A stretch of 46,490 bases of DNA from Pseudomonadota bacterium. Its GTDB lineage: Bacteria > Pseudomonadota > Alphaproteobacteria > UBA828. Under the pieces are notes generated by a model. It saw only the letters and a list, made by a program, of their open reading frames with translations, was not told the origin of the DNA and did not search any database. This document shows positions 18,995 through 29,476 of the stretch, piece after piece (position 1 is the stretch's first letter; every line of letters starts with the position of its first letter). Both the position numbers and the translations under genes were made by a program. Location of the stretch: contig JAQBTG010000030.1 of assembly GCA_027624955.1 (NCBI GenBank), positions 1 to 46,490 on the forward strand. Reading direction: 5' to 3'.

Positions 18995-20344
18995 ATGACG
19001 AGTTCGCGGGCATTCGCAAGAATCCTCACCCTTTGCGCTGTGCTTCTGGCTGGGATTTTTTCCACCCCGCCGGCGCACGCCGAGTTTGACGAAGGCGTGC
19101 AGGCCTATTTGGCTCAGGATTATGAAGCCGCGCTGGCTGCTTGGCGGCCGCTCGCTGATAAGGGCAACGCGGAAGCACAATTCGGCATCGGGCTATGCTA
19201 CGAGAACGGACGCGGTGTGGAACGGAACCTCACGCAGGCCGCCGTTTGGTATCGCAAAGCGGCTGAACAGGGCCTGGATGAGGCTCAATTCAACCTCGGC
19301 AATCTATATCTTAACGCCGCGGGCGTACCCAGGGATTTGGTCGAGGCGGTAAGATGGTATCGCCGCGCCGCTGAACAGGGCATGCCGCATGCACAGGTCA
19401 ATCTCGGCTATTCCTACGAGACCGGTTCGGGTGTGACGAAAGACGCTGAAAAGGCGGTGTCGTGGTATCGCCGCGCCGCCGAGCAGAATTTTCCCCAGGC
19501 GCAATATTATCTCGGCGCCGCCTATGAGCGTGGCAGTGGCGTTGAAGAAGACCTTCCCCTCGCTGCCGCCTGGTATCAACGCGCCGCCAAGCAAGGCGTC
19601 GTGCTCGCCGTCAAACGCCTGGAGGCGCTCACGGACAAAGATATAGAGCCGGCTGTGATCGTCGCAAACAGCGCGCCGGCAGAACGGGAACCCGTGGCGC
19701 CCAAAGCGCCGGCCGTGGCGGAGCAGAAGACGCCGCCTGAGACAACGGCAGTTGAGGCTGAGGTTGAGGCTGAGGTTGAGGTTGAGGCTGAGGTTGAGGT
19801 TGAGGTTGAGGTTGAGGCTGAGGCTGAGGTTGAGGTTGAGGTTGAGGCTGAGGCTGAGGTTGAGGCTGAGGTTGAGGCTGGGGCTGAGGTTGAGGCTGAA
19901 GTAAAAGAAAACAATCCGGTTGAAAGCGCACCGACACCCGAGCCTGAAGCGCCGAGCGCCGCCGCAACGGCAGCGCAAACAGCGACGGCGGCAGCGCCAG
20001 CAGGTGACATGCCGACAAACAACCAGACCGCGACCGCATCCGGTGCGGCGCCGACAACCGCCCGGGCCGGCGAGCGTGTGGAGAGCCTAAGCGGCAGTTT
20101 CCGCCTCCGGCTCGCTTCCTACCGCCAGCCAGCGAATGCCGAAAAAGGCTGGCGCATCCTGTCCACCAAGTACAATGATCTACTTGCCAGCTTCAACTAT
20201 GCTGTTGCTGAGGTGGATTTGGGCGCCGACAAGGGCATCTATCACCGCCTTGAGGCGGGGCCGGCGGGGTCTCTGAACGAGGCGCAAGAACTGTGTGCCA
20301 AAATCAAAGCGCGCGGCGATAGCTGCACCGTGGTGCAGCCGTGA
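18995..20344 (+). CDS. Secreted Sel1-repeat protein with Glu-Val/Ala low-complexity linker and C-terminal SPOR domain
   Basis: This 449-residue protein has a signal peptide ending at AHAEF, followed by about five Sel1-like repeats (residues 40-210). They recur as AxxNLGNLY, VRWYRRAAEQGMPHAQ and similar. The linker is dominated by alternating Glu and Val/Ala (about residues 253-303), encoded by a near-perfect GAGGTT/GAGGCT hexamer array. A SPOR domain (about 365-449, FRLRLASYRQPANAEKGW) ends the chain. SPOR domains bind denuded peptidoglycan at division sites, and Sel1 repeats mediate protein contacts, so an envelope or division-site scaffold is likely. The Glu-rich spacer may act as a stiff or charged spring across the periplasm; this is inference. 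Confidence 0.85.
   Translation: MTSSRAFARILTLCAVLLAGIFSTPPAHAEFDEGVQAYLAQDYEAALAAWRPLADKGNAEAQFGIGLCYENGRGVERNLTQAAVWYRKAAEQGLDEAQFNLGNLYLNAAGVPRDLVEAVRWYRRAAEQGMPHAQVNLGYSYETGSGVTKDAEKAVSWYRRAAEQNFPQAQYYLGAAYERGSGVEEDLPLAAAWYQRAAKQGVVLAVKRLEALTDKDIEPAVIVANSAPAEREPVAPKAPAVAEQKTPPETTAVEAEVEAEVEVEAEVEVEVEVEAEAEVEVEVEAEAEVEAEVEAGAEVEAEVKENNPVESAPTPEPEAPSAAATAAQTATAAAPAGDMPTNNQTATASGAAPTTARAGERVESLSGSFRLRLASYRQPANAEKGWRILSTKYNDLLASFNYAVAEVDLGADKGIYHRLEAGPAGSLNEAQELCAKIKARGDSCTVVQP
19751..19902 (+). repeat. Hexanucleotide tandem array (GAGGTT/GAGGCT) coding for Glu-Val/Glu-Ala
   Basis: About 25 units of GAGGTT or GAGGCT follow one another with only a few single-base changes (GGG near 19880, GAA near 19898). 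The unit is six bases, so gain or loss of units keeps the frame. The opposite strand reads as Pro-Gln repeats, which is a shadow. Confidence 0.95.
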
Positions 20345-20416: not shown

Positions 20417-21556
20417 ATGAATTCGGCGGCTCGCGAAGGATGGCTTGAACGGCAGGAGACGGCCGAGGCACTGGTACTCAGCCTCGGCGGTCGTTGGGAC
20501 ATGCGCTGCGCCGAGCGCTATGAGAAAGAGCTGCGCCACCTGACGATGCCGGGTGAGAAAAATTTGCGCATCGATTTTTCCGCCATCGAATCGCTTGATA
20601 CCGCTGGGGCCTGGCTGGTCCACCGTCTGGCGAAGCGGCTGCGCGACGACGGAATTGGCGTGGATTTCGCCAATTTGCCGGCGGCGCATGCCGATATTCT
20701 CGAGCGCTTGGCGCATATCGATAGCCATGTCGAGATCGAGCCGCCACGGCCAAACGCTATCGCGGCGGTGGTCGCCCGCTGCGGCAAAGGCGTGATCGAT
20801 ATTGGCGTCGAGATCCTGGAAAGTATCGCTTTCCTCGGCCTCACGGCGGTGAGCCTGGCGCGCGCGGTGGTGCAGCCGCGTTTGCTACGCGTGCCGGCCA
20901 TTTTTTATCACATGGAACAGGCCGGCCTGAACGCCATCCCGATTGTCGCCCTGATCGCCTTTCTCATCGGCCTTGTGATCGCCTATCAAGGCGCAATCCA
21001 GCTGCGTCAATTCGGCGCCGAAATATTCGTTGTCGATATGGTCGCAGTATCAATATTGCGCGAACTGGCGATCCTGCTGACCGCAATCGTCGTTGCCGGG
21101 CGCTCCGGCAGCGCGTTCACGGCGCAAATCGGCGCGATGAAAATCAATGAAGAAGTCGATGCCATGCGCACCATTGGCCTTGATCCGATGCAGGTATTGG
21201 TCTTGCCGCGTGTGATCGCGCTGATGATCGTGTTGCCGCTTCTCGGGTTTGTCGCCGATGTGATGGGGCTCATCGGCGGCGGTGTGATGTCGATGATCGA
21301 GCTTGGTATTTCGCCAGCGCAATTCATCGATCGCCTCGGGCAATCTTTCGCGCCCTGGACGCTCGGCACCGGCCTGGTCAAGGCACCGGTCTTCGCCGCG
21401 ATCATCTCGACCACGTCATGTTATATGGGTATGAAAGTTACTGGCAGTTCCGAAAGCCTCGGCAAACTGACGACGCGGTCCGTGGTGCACGCCATCTTCG
21501 CGGTGATCGTTGCCGACGCCGTGTTCTCCATATTCTTCGCCTATATTGGGATCTGA
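20417..21556 (+). CDS. MlaE-family lipid ABC permease with N-terminal STAS domain
   Basis: This 379-residue protein has a STAS domain at residues 15-105, with the typical RIDFSAIESLDTAGAWLV switch motif. The MlaE permease follows at 130-379, with IPIVALIAFLIGLVIAYQ, the family signature VAGRSGSAFTAQIGAMKINEE, and GLDPMQVLVLPR. MlaE-type permeases move phospholipids or other lipids between inner and outer membrane with an MCE protein and ATPase. In Escherichia coli the STAS protein MlaB is separate; here it is fused. It is the first gene of a tightly packed four-gene operon (20417-24034). Confidence 0.93.
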   Translation: MNSAAREGWLERQETAEALVLSLGGRWDMRCAERYEKELRHLTMPGEKNLRIDFSAIESLDTAGAWLVHRLAKRLRDDGIGVDFANLPAAHADILERLAHIDSHVEIEPPRPNAIAAVVARCGKGVIDIGVEILESIAFLGLTAVSLARAVVQPRLLRVPAIFYHMEQAGLNAIPIVALIAFLIGLVIAYQGAIQLRQFGAEIFVVDMVAVSILRELAILLTAIVVAGRSGSAFTAQIGAMKINEEVDAMRTIGLDPMQVLVLPRVIALMIVLPLLGFVADVMGLIGGGVMSMIELGISPAQFIDRLGQSFAPWTLGTGLVKAPVFAAIISTTSCYMGMKVTGSSESLGKLTTRSVVHAIFAVIVADAVFSIFFAYIGI

Positions 21557-21561
21557 CGGTG

Positions 21562-22371
21562 ATGGAAACAGCGAACGATATCGCCATTCGGGTTGATAAC
21601 ATCACGGTCGGTTTCGACCGGGTGACGGTGCTTGAAAATCTTAGCCTGGACGTCCGGCGCGGCGAAGTGATGGGGTTCGTCGGGCCCTCCGGTTCGGGGA
21701 AATCGGTTCTGCTGCGCACTATTGTCGGGCTCAACCAACGGCGCGCAGGGCGCATCGAGGTATTGGGCCAGGATTTGGATACGCTCAATCATCGCCGGCG
21801 CCGCGACCTAGAAGCGCGGTGGGGCGTTCTGTTCCAGAGCGGCGCGTTGTTTTCCTCTTTGACGGTAGCGCAAAACATCGAAGTGCCGCTGTTGGAACAT
21901 AGCAAGCTGCCGCGCGACGTGGTCGAAGAAATATGTGCCCTCAAGATCGGCCTGGTCGGACTGCCGCGGGAAGCGGCCGCCAAATTTCCGATGGAGCTGT
22001 CAGGCGGCATGCGCAAACGCGCCGGATTGGCGCGGGCGCTGGCGCTCGATCCCGAAATACTCTTTCTCGATGAGCCGACCGCCGGTTTGGACCCGATCGG
22101 CGCGGCGGCCTTCGACGAATTGCTGCGCAGCCTGCAGCGCAGCCTCGGCATCACCGTATTTATGGTCACCCATGATCTCGACAGCCTCTACGCGGTCTGT
22201 GACCGCATCGCTGTACTTGGCGACAAACATGTTATCGTTACCGGTACTGTGGAAGACATGCAGCAACAGGTGCACCCCTGGATCCGCGACTATTTTCATG
22301 GTCCGCGCGGGCGGGCCGCACAAATCCCGGGTCCGCGCGGGCAGGCCGCAAAAGGGGTGGAGAGCGCATAG
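21562..22371 (+). CDS. MlaF-family lipid ABC transporter ATPase
   Basis: This 269-residue ATPase has Walker A GPSGSGKS, the Q-loop in LFQSGALFSSLTV, the signature LSGGMRKRAGLARALA, Walker B ILFLDEPTAGLD and the H-loop TVFMVTHD, matching the MlaF/Ttg2A branch. ATG 21562 lies five bases after the permease stop. The C-terminal tail holds an in-frame 30-bp direct repeat giving GPRGRAAQIP then GPRGQAAKGV. It energises the MlaE-type permease and MCE protein encoded on either side. Confidence 0.93.
   Translation: METANDIAIRVDNITVGFDRVTVLENLSLDVRRGEVMGFVGPSGSGKSVLLRTIVGLNQRRAGRIEVLGQDLDTLNHRRRRDLEARWGVLFQSGALFSSLTVAQNIEVPLLEHSKLPRDVVEEICALKIGLVGLPREAAAKFPMELSGGMRKRAGLARALALDPEILFLDEPTAGLDPIGAAAFDELLRSLQRSLGITVFMVTHDLDSLYAVCDRIAVLGDKHVIVTGTVEDMQQQVHPWIRDYFHGPRGRAAQIPGPRGQAAKGVESA
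22300..22359 (+). repeat. 30-bp imperfect tandem repeat at the 3' end of the MlaF-type gene
   Basis: GGTCCGCGCGGGC begins at 22300 and again at 22330. The two 30-base units differ at several positions and are in frame (10 codons each). Confidence 0.8.
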
Positions 22372-22373
22372 AG

Positions 22374-23381
22374 ATGGAAACCAGGACCAATCATCTTTTG
22401 GTCGGCGCGTTCGTTCTGCTGCTAGTTGCAGGGTTGGTGGCGTTTATCATCTGGGCGGTCAAAGCCGATGTAGACGCCAAACACACCAACTACCATGTCT
22501 ACTTCAGCGGCTCGGTTTCCGGCCTTAGCAATGTCAGCGAAGTTCGCTATCGCGGTGTTCCGATCGGTACGGTGACGGATATCCGCATCGACCCCGACAA
22601 TGTGGAGCGCGTGCGCGTCACTCTCGACATCAGCGGCGAAACGCCAATCAAAGAGGATTCGATCGCATCGATTGAAATGCAGGGAATCACCGGCGTGGCG
22701 CTGGTGCAGATTTCCGGTGGCCGGCAGACGAGCTCGAACTTGAAAGCACGAGAAGGCGAAAAATATCCGATCATCAAATCAAAAAAATCCGGTCTTGAAA
22801 AACTCTTCACCGACGCGCCAGAACTTATCAACCGCGTTCTGACCCTGGTCGAGACCGCGACCCGCCTATTCGATGAGAAGAATATGGCGGCGATCAGCGG
22901 CACGCTCGCCAACACTGAAAAAATGACTGCCACCCTCGCCGGCAGCGCTGAGAAAATCGATGCGTTCCTGGTTGACGCCTCCGGTACCGCAGCGGAATTG
23001 CGCGCGACCATGAAAGAAATGCGCGGCGATATTGCACATTTGATGGCAAATGCGGATGCGACCTTGATCTCGGCACGTGCCACCATGGACACGATCGGCG
23101 ACGAAACTGCGGCATTGGGCGGTGACGCCCGCGCCTTGATCGCGGATCTGCGCGGCTCCGCGCATTCGCTCAGCAGTATGAGTGAAGAAATTCAGGGATT
23201 GGTGGCGGACACTCGCGTGCCGCTAAATGATTTCACCACCGAGGGCCTGTATGAATTTTCCCGCTTGATCACCGAGATGCGGACACTGGTGGCGAGCCTG
23301 TCGCGCATTGCCGACGGTTTGGAGAGTGACCCAACTGGTTACTTATTCGGCAACAAAGAAGGAGGGTTCAAAACGGAATGA
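22374..23381 (+). CDS. MlaD/MCE-family lipid-binding protein
   Basis: This 335-residue protein has one N-terminal membrane anchor (LLVGAFVLLLVAGLVAFIIW) followed by an MCE domain (about 38-118: VSGLSNVSEVRYRGVPIG, VTLDISGETPIKEDS, GITGVALVQISGG). A long, largely helical periplasmic C-terminus follows with heptad-like alanine and threonine. MCE rings carry lipid between the ABC core and the outer membrane; the extended helical part may form a tube or bridge. It starts two bases after the ATPase stop and overlaps the lipoprotein start by four bases. Confidence 0.92.
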   Translation: METRTNHLLVGAFVLLLVAGLVAFIIWAVKADVDAKHTNYHVYFSGSVSGLSNVSEVRYRGVPIGTVTDIRIDPDNVERVRVTLDISGETPIKEDSIASIEMQGITGVALVQISGGRQTSSNLKAREGEKYPIIKSKKSGLEKLFTDAPELINRVLTLVETATRLFDEKNMAAISGTLANTEKMTATLAGSAEKIDAFLVDASGTAAELRATMKEMRGDIAHLMANADATLISARATMDTIGDETAALGGDARALIADLRGSAHSLSSMSEEIQGLVADTRVPLNDFTTEGLYEFSRLITEMRTLVASLSRIADGLESDPTGYLFGNKEGGFKTE

Positions 23382-24034
23382 CCATAACTCAACAAATATA
23401 TTTGGCCCGAGGATGGCGGCGCATCGCCGCAGCAATGCTGGTGCTCGCAGTTGCCTTCACTGCTGGTGGCTGCTCGCTCGACGGCTTATTGGCGGGCAGC
23501 GGCCCGGCGCCCAGTCTCTATGTGTTATCGCCAAAAAGCACCTTTGCCGACGATCTGCCCTATGTGGAATCCCAGCTCGTCGTCGAGCTGCCGATCGCCT
23601 CGGAAGGGCTGAATACGCACCGGATTGCGCTGCGCGAGAGCCCGCTCACTCTCGATTTTTTTGCCGGTGCAAGATGGACCGAGCGGGCGCCGCAAATGGT
23701 GCAAACGCTGCTCGTTGAATCCTTCGAAAATACCGGCAAGATCGTGTCGGTCGCCAGACAAGGCGTCGATCTTAGGGCCGATTTCGTGCTCAAAACTGAG
23801 CTACGGGAATTTCAGGCGGAATACTCCGGCAATGATGAGGCGCCGCATGTTTGGGTCAAACTGAACGCAAAACTGGTGCGCATGCCAGCGCGGACCATCA
23901 TCGCGTCGGAAACATTCGAGGCGCGCTACGCCGTCGGCGGATCGTCGATGAAAGATGTCGTCGTGGCGTTTGATGAAACGCTCAACAAAGTGTTGAAGAA
24001 AAGCGTGCTCTGGACGATGGGCCGGCTACGTTAA
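23378..24034 (+). CDS. ABC-type transport auxiliary lipoprotein (PqiC/LbrB-like)
   Basis: This 218-residue protein has a signal sequence and a lipobox-like AGGC at C32. The following domain (YVLSPKSTF, QMVQTLLVESFENTGK, LKTELREFQAEYSG, ASETFEARYAV) matches the auxiliary lipoproteins found with MCE-type ABC operons. It probably sits in the outer membrane and receives or docks the MCE protein. The ATGA overlap with the MlaD-type gene shows it belongs to the same operon. Confidence 0.88.
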   Translation: MTITQQIYLARGWRRIAAAMLVLAVAFTAGGCSLDGLLAGSGPAPSLYVLSPKSTFADDLPYVESQLVVELPIASEGLNTHRIALRESPLTLDFFAGARWTERAPQMVQTLLVESFENTGKIVSVARQGVDLRADFVLKTELREFQAEYSGNDEAPHVWVKLNAKLVRMPARTIIASETFEARYAVGGSSMKDVVVAFDETLNKVLKKSVLWTMGRLR

Positions 24035-24047
24035 AGAGAATTAACCG

Positions 24048-24572
24048 TCAGGCGGGATAGCGCATAAGCGCTGTCGTCGGCAAGCCATCCAAGCGCTCGC
24101 GGCCGCCGAGGCCGATAAGCTCGATCAAGAATGCGGCGCCGACCACATTGGCGCCGACCTGATTGAGCAACTGCATGGTTGCCCGCGCGGTCCCGCCGGT
24201 CGCCAGAAGGTCATCAAGAATGACAACTCGTAGCCCCGGTTTGATGAAGTCTTTTTTTATTTCCACCGCATCGGTGCCGTATTCGAGCGAATATTCAAGT
24301 TTGATCGTATCGCCAGGCAGCTTGCCCTGCTTGCGAATCATGACGAAGCCACAACCCATTCTGTATGCCAGGGGCGCAGCCACAAGAAAGCCGCGTGATT
24401 CAATCCCGACCAGGAGGTCCGGCGCATACGGCCCGATCGCGTCGGCGAGCTGCTCAACGGCCTGGGCCCATGCGCCGGAGTGCGCCAATAGCGGCGATAT
24501 GTCGTAGAACAAAATTCCCGGTTTCGGAAAATCGGGAATTTCAGCGACATGATCCTGAAGTCTTATCGACAT
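24048..24572 (-). CDS. apt: Adenine phosphoribosyltransferase
   Basis: This 174-residue protein, the standard Apt length, has the PRPP-binding motif VVILDDLLATGGTA, the N-terminal IPDFPKPGILFYDI and GIESRGFLVA. It salvages adenine with PRPP to AMP in the cytoplasm. It converges with the lipoprotein gene 13 bases away, with no room for a separate terminator. A small cytochrome c gene ends 38 bases upstream of its start, on the same strand. Confidence 0.96.
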   Translation of the reverse strand: MSIRLQDHVAEIPDFPKPGILFYDISPLLAHSGAWAQAVEQLADAIGPYAPDLLVGIESRGFLVAAPLAYRMGCGFVMIRKQGKLPGDTIKLEYSLEYGTDAVEIKKDFIKPGLRVVILDDLLATGGTARATMQLLNQVGANVVGAAFLIELIGLGGRERLDGLPTTALMRYPA

Positions 24573-24610: not shown

Positions 24611-24994
24611 TTACTTGGTCGCCTCTTTCAAATAGGCGATCAAATTGGCGCGTTGTTTATCCTTTTTGACACCCTTGAACGCCATCTTGTTTTTCGGGAT
24701 ATAGCCCTTGGGGTCCTTAATATAGTCGTTGATGGTCGTTTCATCCCACACAATGGCCGCAGTTTTCATAGCGTCCGAATATTTGAACCCTTCCAAGGTG
24801 CCAGACGTGCGCCCGAACAATCCGTGCATATTGGGCCCGACCTTGTTCTTTCCGCCGGCTTCAAGGGTGTGACAGGCTTTGCACTTCTTGAAAACTTTCG
24901 CGCCCTTTTCGGCGTCTCCGTCGGCAAACGCCGCGCTGCTGGCGATGGCAATTATGGCGGCGGCGCTCATCGCCAGAACGTTCCGTAAGATCAT
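24611..24994 (-). CDS. Periplasmic cytochrome c (c2/c-550-like)
   Basis: This 127-residue protein has a signal peptide ending SSAAFA. The haem site CKACH lies at 38-42, followed by [16 protein letters not shown] and a distal methionine in [10 protein letters not shown], all typical of mitochondrial/alphaproteobacterial cytochrome c2. ATG 24994 is preceded by AAGGAG. It is a soluble electron carrier, probably between the bc1 complex and a terminal oxidase or other acceptor. A P460-domain protein encoded upstream on the same strand could be a redox partner, but there is no direct evidence. Confidence 0.92.
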
Positions 24995-25139
24995 GACCTG
25001 TCTCCTTAAAACTGTGTCCGTGAGAGGGCGGAGAATATGCTGCGACCGCGCGCTGTTCAAGCGGCGCAATTGTCGCAGGTAAAACTTCCTCGCGCCGCAG
25101 ATTTACCATCGCACGCCGCCACCACCCGGAACTTGGAGG

Positions 25140-26213
25140 CTATTGTTTGCGATATTCCTCATCGAGGAAGAAGCGGCTGTCTTCCTCTTCCTGGACGGCA
25201 TGACACTCGATGCAAAATCCCACCTTGGCGGAACCTTTTCCACCCGTGGTGCCGAGAATCTTGCCGTTGGGCAGAATCAGCGTGTACCGCCAATCACCGG
25301 ATTCGGCATTGAACCCGGCGGCCATCTTCTCCATCAGGAACATGGGACCGGCGCCCACTTTGCCGTTCGGCTTGACCGAAAAACTATCTTTGGCAAGGAC
25401 CGTGCCCTCCGGAGACGGGCCGGCATTTTCAAACAAGCCGTAGTTGGAGCCTCTGGCGTTGGCGTAATTATTGACGAAACGGCCGCCATGCGTGCCGGAG
25501 GTGTAGGGCTGGGCCGCATAATTGGTCCAGGATTGGTAGGCCGTAACCCACTGATTTCCGGATTTGGCGTAGCCCGCCTTCAAACTGCCCTTAATGCAGG
25601 CATATGCCGCGTTCGCCTGAGCAGCGCTAAGTTCAACATCGTCCGCCGCACCGCACGGGCCGCAGGGATTGCAGGCGCCACACGGGTTGCACGGGTTCGC
25701 TGCCGCACAGGGATTGCAGGGATTGCACGCTGCGGCGCAAGGATTGCACGCGCCGCACGGATTACAGGGATTCGCTGCCGCGCAAGGGTTGCAGGCCGCA
25801 GCACAGGGATTGCATGCGCCGCACGGATTGCAGGGATTTGCCGCCGCGCAAGGATTGCACGGGTTGCAGGCGCCGCCCATGCCCGGGACCGTACACTCCG
25901 CCGCCGCGCCGCACGCTCCGGCCCCGCAGGGGTTACAAGGATTGCAGGCCGCGCCGCAGGGATTACATGGGTTACAAGCCCAACAAGGATTGCAAGCGCC
26001 ACAAGGATTTGCCGCCGCGCACGGATTGCAGGGATTGCAAGCGTTGCACGCCGCCAGAATAATCTGGCCGACATCGGCGCTACGCGCAACTGCCGCCGGA
26101 TTTTCGCCCCGGGTGGCAGCGTTGGCAGGCTGCATGCCGCTCACCGCTGCGACGCTGATGCCGATAACCATGGGGATGAAAGTGCTGGAGAGTAATTTAT
26201 TCTTCTGTTCCAT
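25140..26213 (-). CDS. Secreted cytochrome P460-domain protein with a long CNPC-repeat, cysteine-rich region
   Basis: This 357-residue protein has a signal peptide at about 1-33. From 56 to 187 there are about 36 cysteines in repeats such as [14 protein letters not shown] and AAANPCNPC, most spaced exactly three residues apart. Residues 195-340 look like a cytochrome P460 domain ([45 protein letters not shown]), with the haem c site CIECH at 334-338. P460 cytochromes oxidise hydroxylamine or nitric oxide using a lysine-crosslinked haem. The Cys region may bind metal or form disulfide or thioether links. ATG 26213 has GGGAG upstream. The repeat region is part of the same open frame, not an insertion with its own start. 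Confidence 0.8.
25653..26048 (-). repeat. DNA encoding the CNPC repeat region of the P460-domain protein
   Basis: This is a degenerate nine-base-periodic stretch (codons for Cys-Asn-Pro, Cys-Gly-Ala and Cys-Ala-Ala) spanning residues 56-187. On the other strand it produces a false Gln-Gly-Leu ORF. Variation between units is mostly synonymous or by whole triplets. Confidence 0.85.
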
Positions 26214-26352: not shown

Positions 26353-27240
26353 ATGAAAGCCACGCTATCCCACATGCCCCGGCTCTTGTTGGCAATCCTG
26401 TTCGGCTCCGCCTGTGTCTGGAGTGGCACGCGCGGCACGCTCGCCAATCAGGCTTTCGTCGCACCGCAATCTGTTCTGATCGCCGCCAGACCGTTTATCG
26501 CCGGCTCGGACGGGGCTGAGCGCGAAGCCGCCTATGTGCTGGACGAAGCGGCATACGGTCACAACCGCACACGCAAATCTGGCTGGTACGACCGCGAGCG
26601 TCAACGCGCCACGCTTCATTTGCCTGCGTATGAGATCACCCGCACGCCGATCACCAATGCGCAATATGCGGCGTTCATAGAGGACAGCGGCCACCCCGCG
26701 CCGGATGTCAACGAGGCGACTTGGAAAGGCTATCGCCTGGTTCACCCGTTTGCGCGCACCCGGCGGCATGCCTGGCGCGATCAACAGCTGCCGGTGGGCC
26801 GGGAGGCGCATCCTGTTGTCCTGGTGTCCCACGCAGATGCCGAAGCTTATGGCGACTGGCTCAGCGTCAAAACGGGGCAGTTATGGCGTCTGCCAAGCGA
26901 ACTGGAGTGGGAGAAAGCGGCGCGCGGAGAGGCCGGAACATATTTTCCATGGGGCGATCATTTCGAACCCGCCCACCTCAACAGCCACGATGCTGGACCG
27001 TTTGACACCCTTCCAGTTGGCCGCTTTCCCGCCGGCGCCAGTCCCTTCGGTCTGCTCGACGCGGCCGGGCAGGTGTTTGAATGGACGAATACAGCCGGTA
27101 ACCCAGGGCGATTTCTCGTCAAGGGTGGTTCGTGGGATGACAAGGGATGCGGCGTCTGCCGCCCAGCAGCGCGCCACGCCCGGCCAGCCGAAATCAAACA
27201 TATCCTAATAGGCTTTCGCCTGGTGTCGGCGAGGCAGTAG
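26353..27240 (+). CDS. Secreted SUMF1/formylglycine-generating-enzyme-like protein
   Basis: This 295-residue protein has an N-terminal signal peptide. The FGE-sulfatase (SUMF1) fold follows: ITRTPITNAQYAAFIEDSG, WRLPSELEWEKAARGE, TYFPWGDHF, PFGLLDAAGQVFEWTNT and VKGGSWDDKGCGVC, ending in GFRLVSA. True formylglycine-generating enzymes have two catalytic, copper-binding cysteines after GGS. Here two cysteines (266, 269) lie in the same segment but with different spacing, so activity is uncertain. It is divergent from the CNPC/P460 gene across about 140 bases. The enzyme family recognises Cys-x-Pro motifs, the same motif that is repeated in its neighbours. Confidence 0.82.
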   Translation: MKATLSHMPRLLLAILFGSACVWSGTRGTLANQAFVAPQSVLIAARPFIAGSDGAEREAAYVLDEAAYGHNRTRKSGWYDRERQRATLHLPAYEITRTPITNAQYAAFIEDSGHPAPDVNEATWKGYRLVHPFARTRRHAWRDQQLPVGREAHPVVLVSHADAEAYGDWLSVKTGQLWRLPSELEWEKAARGEAGTYFPWGDHFEPAHLNSHDAGPFDTLPVGRFPAGASPFGLLDAAGQVFEWTNTAGNPGRFLVKGGSWDDKGCGVCRPAARHARPAEIKHILIGFRLVSARQ

Positions 27241-27362: not shown

Positions 27363-28145
27363 ATGTCTAAAAACATAGAGATCGCCGACAAACAACAGAC
27401 CCAACATCAATTGGATATGGCGACCCAACCCGCCAAGCGGCTACGCATGATGCTAGCTGCAGGCGAGGATGTTCTCGAAATTTGGCGCGTTCTTGCTCTG
27501 ACAGACGACAACGTCGTCGGCGAGATCCTTCGCCATCAGGGCATGTTTTACCGATGGGATCATTACCCCAAAGGCGATGTGTACGACCGCCAAAGCCATG
27601 CGCAATATTTCTATCACGCGCATTCGGTAGGTGGCCGCGATCCGGAGCATGGCCATTTTCATACCTTCATGCGCGCGAAGGGCATGGCGCGCGGTGTGAA
27701 GCCGATCAATCGCCCAGACCGTTCCGCCTGGCCGACCGGCACCGACGCGCTGAGCCATATCATCGGAATTTCGATGGACGCGAAAGGTATGCCGATTCGG
27801 TTGTTTACCACCAACCGCTGGGTTACCGGCGAGGCGTGGTACAAAGCGCGCGATGTGGTCAAGATGATCGGGCTTTATTCAATTGACCACGTGCAACCGT
27901 CCTGGCCATCCAACCGCTGGGTGAGCGGCATGGTCCGGCTTTTTTGGCCGCAGATCATCGTGTTAATTCAGGCGCGCGATCTGTGCATCCAAGCCTGGGA
28001 AAAACAAAATCCGGGAAAGGACGTTTTCGAGGACAGGGGCTTGGAGGTAACCTCGCAGGCCGATATCGACGTCGATGTTCAAATCGCCGCGGTCAAAGCA
28101 GCCCTGGCGGTGAAGGCGGACGCAAAACAAGCGAGAATGGAATAG
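27363..28145 (+). CDS. Conserved hypothetical protein, DUF6969-like
   Basis: This 260-residue soluble protein is rich in aromatic and histidine residues. The central part FYRWDHYPKGDVYDRQSHAQYFYHAHS and GHFHTFM, shown here in pieces, matches my memory of the DUF6969 family; I know no function for it. His/Asp clusters suggest a metal site. The gene starts 122 bases after the SUMF1-like gene on the same strand and ends facing the small Cys-ladder peptide gene, with a bidirectional terminator between. It has no signal peptide, so it would act in the cytoplasm. Confidence 0.7.
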   Translation: MSKNIEIADKQQTQHQLDMATQPAKRLRMMLAAGEDVLEIWRVLALTDDNVVGEILRHQGMFYRWDHYPKGDVYDRQSHAQYFYHAHSVGGRDPEHGHFHTFMRAKGMARGVKPINRPDRSAWPTGTDALSHIIGISMDAKGMPIRLFTTNRWVTGEAWYKARDVVKMIGLYSIDHVQPSWPSNRWVSGMVRLFWPQIIVLIQARDLCIQAWEKQNPGKDVFEDRGLEVTSQADIDVDVQIAAVKAALAVKADAKQARME

Positions 28146-28201: not shown

Positions 28202-28244
28202 AAAAAGACCGCTTCCCGCGTGACGCAGGAAGCGGCCCTTTTTT
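28202..28244. terminator. Bidirectional intrinsic terminator
   Basis: CCGCTTCC (28209-28216) pairs with GGAAGCGG (28228-28235), with an inner GCG/CGC stem and a TGA loop. A T6 run follows on the plus strand and an A5 run precedes it, so it can end transcripts from both the DUF6969-like gene and the convergent peptide gene. Confidence 0.85.
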
Positions 28245-28267: not shown

Positions 28268-28456
28268 TCAACCGCAAGGATTGCAGGCGCCACACGGATT
28301 GCACGGATTGCACGCCGCACATGGGTTGCACGGATTGCAGGCATTGCAGGATGCCAAAACGATGGGCTTCTCGCCCGCCGATACGGCGGAGGGAAGGAGG
28401 GCGGCACCAGCGGTCATGGTCACAACCGTCATTGCTACGATGGTTTCTTTCAACAT
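28268..28456 (-). CDS. Secreted 62-residue peptide with an unbroken Cys-x-x ladder (CNPCNPC)
   Basis: A signal peptide of about 27 residues (ending PSAVSA) is followed by a short spacer. The last 26 residues carry a cysteine at every third position: C37, 40, 43, 46, 49, 52, 55, 58 and 61. The residues between are Asn-Pro, Asn-Ala, Ala-Ala and Gly-Ala. The start at 28456 has AAAGGAG eleven bases upstream. The repeat matches that of the P460-domain protein encoded 2 kb away. It could be a metal-binding peptide, a substrate for a modifying enzyme, or a structural disulfide ladder. It is too regular to be a chance ORF, and the terminator right behind it supports expression. Confidence 0.8.
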
Positions 28457-28705
28457 TGTTTCAACATCTCCTTTGATTTCACATTTAGTTCTACCGGACT
28501 CATCGAAACCGCGAATGCGGGTATTCGAAACCTGGACAGTAAGGAGATAATGGGGGAAACAATGTCCTAAGAAAAGGGTCTCGCAGTCGAATCGCGATAA
28601 ATTGATGGCGAGTTACTTTTGACCCGTTCCTACTTTACGCACTCGACCCGCAAGCCTTTCCTACCTCTTATGTGAGCTCATATGTGAGCGAAAACGGCGA
28701 ACAAG

Positions 28706-29476
28706 ATGACTGTAAAAGATCGTGCAGCCCTAGCAGAATTAGCCCATGTCCTCGCGTTGCAGGCTGGCGAGGCGATCATGCGCCTCTACCGCCAAGGTAT
28801 CGCTGTGCAAACTAAGGACGATGCCTCACCGGTAACGGAGGCGGATGAAATTGCCGACGCGCTTATCGTCGCCGGGCTGGCCGCCGGCGCGCCCGGAATT
28901 CCCATCGTCTCCGAGGAAAGCGTGTCGCAAGGCCGCATGCCGGACATCAGCGGCGGCCGGTTTTGGCTGGTCGATCCACTCGACGGAACCAAGGAATTTA
29001 TTTCCTGCACGGATGAATTCACCGTCAATATCGCGCTGGTCGAAAACGGCAGCCCCGTTCTCGGTGCGCTGCATGCCCCAGCGCTGGACGAATGTTACCT
29101 CGCCGATGGCCGTGGCGCGTTTCTGATTGCCAAGGATGGCAACAGGACGCCGATTCGCGCGCGCCCGCTGCCGCCAGACGGTGCCGTTGTCGTTGCCAGC
29201 CGCAACCACCGCGATGCCGCAACCGACGAATTCATCGCCCGCCACCAAACATCGCGCATTACCAGCGCTGGCAGCGCCCTCAAATTTGGCTTGCTGGCCA
29301 AAGGCGACGCAGACCTCTACCCGCGCTTTGGCCGCACCATGGAATGGGACACCGCGGCGGGCCATGCCGTGCTGACGGCGGCGGGCGGCAGCGTAAGGCG
29401 CATGGATGGGACGGTGCTTCGCTACGGCAAGGACGGTCTCGACAATCCGGCATTCGTTGCCCGCGGCGTGGAATGA
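28706..29476 (+). CDS. cysQ: 3'(2'),5'-bisphosphate nucleotidase CysQ (inositol monophosphatase family)
   Basis: This 256-residue protein has the lithium-sensitive phosphatase motif WLVDPLDGTKEFI and the C-terminal EWDTAAGHAVLTAAGG metal motif. The N-terminal SPVTEADEIAD is also typical. It degrades 3'-phosphoadenosine 5'-phosphate formed in sulfate assimilation or related sulfo-transfer. Its stop overlaps the next gene as ATGA. The upstream 249 bases hold a TATGTGAGC direct repeat (28669 and 28681) that could be an operator but is unproven. Confidence 0.92.
   Translation: MTVKDRAALAELAHVLALQAGEAIMRLYRQGIAVQTKDDASPVTEADEIADALIVAGLAAGAPGIPIVSEESVSQGRMPDISGGRFWLVDPLDGTKEFISCTDEFTVNIALVENGSPVLGALHAPALDECYLADGRGAFLIAKDGNRTPIRARPLPPDGAVVVASRNHRDAATDEFIARHQTSRITSAGSALKFGLLAKGDADLYPRFGRTMEWDTAAGHAVLTAAGGSVRRMDGTVLRYGKDGLDNPAFVARGVE

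Follow-up and report, generated by a model that had tools for sequence, protein, structure and literature searches.

Cysteine-ladder genes and their neighborhood

The window analyzed here is the whole 46,490-nucleotide stretch of contig JAQBTG010000030.1 (assembly GCA_027624955.1), from an alphaproteobacterium of the UBA828 lineage. A short open reading frame on its minus strand translates to a 62-residue peptide, and the gene order around it is APRT, cytochrome c, ladder-P460, FGE-domain, DUF6969, peptide, and inositol-phosphatase family. The features are as follows.

24048–24572, minus strand: APRT
24611–25069, minus strand: exported cytochrome c, adjoining the ladder-P460 gene and often conserved in the cluster
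25140–26213, minus strand: ladder-P460 protein, with a signal peptide, a ladder of about 36 cysteines, and a C-terminal cytochrome P460 domain (CxxCH at residue 334)
26353–27240, plus strand: FGE-sulfatase-domain (PF03781) protein with a signal peptide and an invariant GGSWDDxGCG[VI]CRPA loop (CxxC)
27363–28145, plus strand: DUF6969 (PF22308) protein without a visible signal peptide
28202–28242, minus strand: intrinsic terminator with a 19-pair stem, probably bidirectional and common to the convergent DUF6969 gene
28268–28456, minus strand: cysteine-ladder peptide, a 27-residue signal peptide and a 35-residue mature part with nine cysteines in a strict Cxx register
28376–28456, minus strand: signal peptide and presumed recognition leader (MLKET...AVSA), judged from sequence
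28468–28472, minus strand: AGGAG ribosome-binding site, with an 11-nucleotide spacer to the ATG
28706–29476, plus strand: inositol-phosphatase family protein

The translation bears out what the initial annotation had read in the peptide: nine cysteines (positions 37, 40, 43, 46, 49, 52, 55, 58, and 61) spaced by exactly three residues throughout, behind an evident signal peptide ending in AVSA. The ladder is built of five CNP triplets and one each of CNA, CAA, and CGA, ending in CG, so that cysteine makes up 26% of the mature peptide; there is no arginine at +4, as there would be in a CxPxR pattern. No family in either Pfam or NCBIfam matches the peptide. The ribosome site that had been called good is present at 28472–28468, though its spacer is acceptable rather than ideal, and the terminator that had been placed after the gene is found at 28242–28202. 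Because this inverted repeat lies between convergent genes and is flanked by T runs, it would serve DUF6969 too, and it probably ends the transcripts of both genes.

The annotation had also seen the peptide's signature in the P460-domain protein 2 kb away, and the same ladder does occupy that protein's N-terminal half, with 36 cysteines among the first 205 residues. The P460 domain (PF16694) scores 27.3 bits, just above the cut-off of 27, and a CxxCH heme site is also present. Both ladder proteins in the window have a short motif just before the ladder (IVLASC, IILAAC) that is present in more than half of all ladder proteins. The whole genome contains 33 CNPC-type DNA sites; these two genes account for 23 of them and the remaining 10 are isolated and dispersed, indicating that the genome's only ladder genes are the two that flank the FGE-like/DUF6969 pair. 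A further motif, C[VFI][VI]PRLA, recurs in the middle of the ladder in many P460-ladder proteins (for example L153 7026–8183, L168 8157–9314, and L176 6967–8145) and is degenerate (CTVPGM) in the ladder-P460 protein of the window. Beyond the cluster, an mla lipid-transport operon and APRT adjoin it (20417–24572), an arrangement common to Azospirillum plasmids (L216, L217, L220), and at 18995–20344 on the plus strand a Sel1-repeat/SPOR protein has a long Glu-Val/Glu-Ala low-complexity stretch between its domains.

Selection on the peptide and association with DUF6969 and FGE-like genes

The opposite strand is also open over the repeat (ORF 28281–28550, plus strand), as might be expected if the peptide frame were a spurious product of a repeat-rich stretch. 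The minus frame, however, has dN/dS values of 0.04, 0.04, and 0.12 against three congeners (first 46 codons), and a phmmer search recovered homologues from 21 of 60 relative genomes, all with the start, signal sequence, and three-residue register in common; together these refute a spurious frame, to which we give a vanishingly small chance. The cysteine, asparagine, proline, and alanine codons within the ladder differ synonymously, which shows that selection acts on the protein and rules out an artefact of a DNA repeat. The small-ORF homology search that the annotation had proposed thus recovered homologues with conserved cysteine spacing rather than the absence that would have spoken against it, and the peptide ORF is a real, conserved gene under selection. 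Among congeners, its ladder changes length fast while the leader stays constant.

Ladders co-occur with DUF6969. Across 385 genomes of the class, counting a genome as ladder-positive if it had at least three ladder-pattern sites, 47 had both ladder DNA and DUF6969, 8 had a ladder without DUF6969, 43 had DUF6969 without a ladder, and 287 had neither (p=6e-27, a nominal value inflated by the relatedness of the genomes). The FGE-like subfamily is found in 32 genomes, 30 of which are DUF6969-positive (p=5e-19). Here the initial annotation was right to link the peptide to the P460 protein but missed the FGE-like gene and DUF6969 as core partners. The order ladder-P460, FGE-like, DUF6969, peptide is conserved within the family, and the order ladder, FGE-like, DUF6969 is seen also in contigs of the gammaproteobacterial Granulosicoccaceae. 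At loci without an FGE-like gene, secreted cysteine-rich proteins still adjoin DUF6969. A strict sequence test for such ORFs, with the same loci as control, gave a density within 2 kb of DUF6969 that was 10.6 times the density at greater distance (25 versus 4; p=7e-8). In Burkholderia glumae, for example, a secreted protein of the CAPKCAPK type lies directly before DUF6969. A plasmid of this species (L219, 4577–5669) has genes for a secreted cysteine-rich protein of 89 residues, DUF6969, a phosphorylase, and TIGR04283/TIGR04282 glycosyltransferases in order, with CcdA and thioredoxin genes upstream.

The association has exceptions. Fewer than three ladder-pattern matches are present in 43 of the 90 DUF6969 genomes, and 34 of 57 DUF6969 loci failed the strict test for secreted cysteine-rich ORFs, although some of these carry ladders that the strict test missed. 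In Azospirillum, DUF6969 lies behind mla genes and no ladder was seen there, and a Pfam tally of the neighbors of DUF6969 at loci without FGE-like or P460 genes gave no second common partner. Directly before distant DUF6969 homologues in two further loci (L189 6679–6975 and L227 2210–2506, both minus strand) is a lipoprotein-like protein with a 'CCAAEGC' repeat, which is unlike the CNP ladder.

Besides P460 domains, ladders have a SoxA/TsdA-type cytochrome c domain as fusion partner in a genome from a different class of the phylum; this fusion adjoins DUF6969 beside a DUF3179 gene (L222 2220–3068, minus strand; L231 6765–7613, minus strand). Two other loci (L235, L236) have distant DUF6969 homologues with sulfur-transport genes (PF04143) on one side and a rhodanese gene on the other. 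Both neighborhoods, and the cytochrome c and P460 heme of the window cluster, could fit a sulfur relay or store, in which the ladder thiols would carry sulfane sulfur or a thiosulfate-derived group and the associated heme-c domains would load or unload them. We consider this improbable, since the scanned part of the window cluster has no sulfur-oxidation genes, P460-type domains are more familiar from NO/hydroxylamine chemistry, and the FGE-like protein would be left unexplained.

Putative enzymes and the signal sequence as presumed leader

In DUF6969, five histidines (His85, His87, His98, His100, and His132) show no variation among 91 homologues, His67 is identical in 99%, and Asp72, Asp75, and Glu95 are nearly invariant, so the protein is a probable multi-histidine metalloenzyme, the metal site being read from the invariant histidines. 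As it has no visible signal peptide, it is probably cytoplasmic. A confident predicted model (pLDDT 84.5) hints at no function, with no match in a fold search at E <0.5 and none with Z ≥8. A search against PDB sequences gave ferritin-like matches only, which we dismissed as chance, and long ORFs in L152 and L172 that had suggested a DUF6969-FGE fusion are in fact overlapping frames. Cultured genera that carry the family include Azospirillum, Sinorhizobium, and Burkholderia, and a search of the open-access literature for DUF6969 or for ladder strings found no paper.

The FGE-like protein of the window matches PF03781 at 138.5 bits, and the N-termini of this subfamily are of signal peptide, Tat, or lipobox types. 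The cysteine pair in the FGE loop binds Cu(I) (PMC12123546). Where FGE has its copper pair in Cx4C spacing (CHDSYC in 6muj), the FGE-like proteins have a CxxC that is invariant in all 16 aligned sequences, indicating that the protein is not a canonical FGE. Sulfatase activation was also rejected as the job of this gene, because a search of the genome for a type I sulfatase (PF00884) found no protein.

The signal sequences of the ladder proteins are unusually conserved. Between the same two clades (genera), and at the same loci, identity over the signal region is 0.72 for the peptide and 0.29 for both the FGE-like protein and the cytochrome c, although the mature part of the FGE-like protein is 72% identical between these clades. 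Among the P460 ladder proteins a second type of signal recurs, L[LM][SATG][STGA][TGSA], in 24 of 41 sequences with mechanically chosen starts; the control counts were 1 of 41 for FGE-like proteins and 2 of 91 for DUF6969. Four genomes (G010, G013, G015, and G017) encode, away from the cluster, paralogous peptides with the same leader as the window peptide; the stretches read there contained no DUF6969, as would be expected if the enzymes work in trans on a set of related substrates. A conserved leader, a variable core, and partner enzyme genes, all found here, are traits of RiPPs.

The initial annotation had left open whether the peptide binds metal or serves for storage, or is instead a precursor on which a modifying enzyme acts. 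The last option now has the most support, because two enzyme-like genes flank and co-vary with the ladders and because the signal sequence is abnormally conserved. Taken together, the data suggest a little-known bacterial system that makes and exports cysteine-rich proteins with chemical modifications and, probably, metal or redox activity. Judged from the sequences, the chances are roughly even that the peptide is one of two substrates of a RiPP-like export system whose ladders are modified or metallated by DUF6969, either alone or together with the FGE-like protein. In such a system the peptide and the ladder-P460 protein would be made as precursors, with their signal sequences doubling as recognition leaders that recruit DUF6969; the cytoplasmic DUF6969 would then modify or metallate the cysteine ladder before Sec export, and the exported FGE-like protein, with its CxxC in the copper-binding loop of FGE, would complete or oxidize the ladder in the periplasm. 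The mature cysteine array could serve as an array of metal (most likely copper) or redox/sulfur ligands beside heme-c proteins. A more specific form, which we put forward tentatively, is that DUF6969 is a new metalloenzyme of peptide modification, no relative of the MNIOs, which places a cysteine-derived ligand along Sec-exported ladders, with the exported, non-canonical FGE-like oxidase acting second; this would establish a novel class of ribosomal peptides and of modified cytochromes across Proteobacteria. Several points weigh against a RiPP-like system: the two putative enzymes would reside in different compartments, many DUF6969 genomes and loci fall short in the tests for ladders or secreted cysteine-rich ORFs, some distant DUF6969 homologues accompany sulfur-transport and rhodanese genes, the predicted DUF6969 fold offers no lead to a function, the loop has CxxC and not Cx4C, and the ladder has no arginine as in CxPxR.

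Metal binding by the ladder is plausible, and it need not involve any modification. The free thiols of the exported ladder might bind a soft metal (Cu, Zn, Cd, or Hg) as an unmodified, metallothionein-like sponge, with DUF6969 and the FGE-like protein as metal-loading, sensing, or thiol-reducing helpers. The cysteine content and regular register agree with this, as does the tolerance of length variation among congeners, which is that of metal-binding repeats, and the invariant histidine cluster of DUF6969 and the CxxC of the FGE-like protein would suit metal handling. We think it unlikely, although it is an alternative to be taken seriously: the neighbors scanned include no metal-resistance gene, simple export does not need a conserved leader, and free thiols in the periplasm tend to oxidize. 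In a structural role, disulfide cross-linked ladders would form an envelope or filament scaffold holding cytochromes, and the FGE-like protein, through its CxxC, would be a disulfide factor dedicated to them. The repetitive cysteine arrays of varying length, the CxxC in an exported partner, and conservation beside mla envelope genes, here and in Azospirillum, point in this direction. Peptides of 35 residues would make poor scaffolds, however, and the cytoplasmic, histidine-rich DUF6969 would be left unaccounted for, and we hold a structural role to be a long shot.

Comparison with known systems

The RiPP-like reading joins three separate unknowns, DUF6969, an orphan FGE-like subfamily, and repetitive cysteine-ladder proteins that are often heme-fused, in one testable system. 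The searched open-access literature yielded no publication on a ladder/DUF6969 system, and each of the known systems nearest to it shares some features and lacks others. Metallothioneins resemble the peptide in the very high cysteine content of a short chain, but the peptide is exported and keeps a fixed three-residue register, and no metallothionein model in Pfam matches it. The neighboring ladder protein ends, like members of the cytochrome P460 family (PF16694), in a P460 domain with CxxCH; unlike them, it has a ladder of about 36 cysteines before the domain, and the 62-residue peptide is a ladder alone. With the FGE/SUMF1 family (PF03781; PMC12123546, PMC4505483) the system shares the FGE domain and an invariant cysteine pair in the loop where FGE binds copper. 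It differs in having CxxC in place of CHxSYC (Cx4C), in a genome without a sulfatase, and in a ladder whose CxP units have no following arginine.

The closest likeness is to the bufferins, Sec-exported, copper-chelating, cysteine-rich RiPPs made by MNIO enzymes, for which the signal peptide has been proposed to act in recognition and of which rare fusions combine a cysteine-rich precursor with a cytochrome c and an FGE domain (PMC12452194). Both systems appear, from the sequences, to have a small cysteine-rich precursor with a Sec signal peptide, and both have partner genes nearby. The partners here are instead DUF6969 and the FGE-like protein, the precursor is a strict Cxx ladder with CNP units, and its large version is fused to a P460 heme domain. 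Bufferin family models (such as DUF2282) leave the precursor unmatched (0 Pfam, 0 NCBIfam), and a search of the whole genome, in an assembly that is 98% complete, found no MNIO (PF05114), so the peptide was rejected as an MNIO substrate. Since the logic is that of bufferins and the enzyme is different, the system is not a member of the bufferin family. By analogy, the ladder system may nevertheless work like the bufferin system and, if the ladder is modified, would be a second, MNIO-independent route to exported cysteine-derived metallophores or redox peptides.
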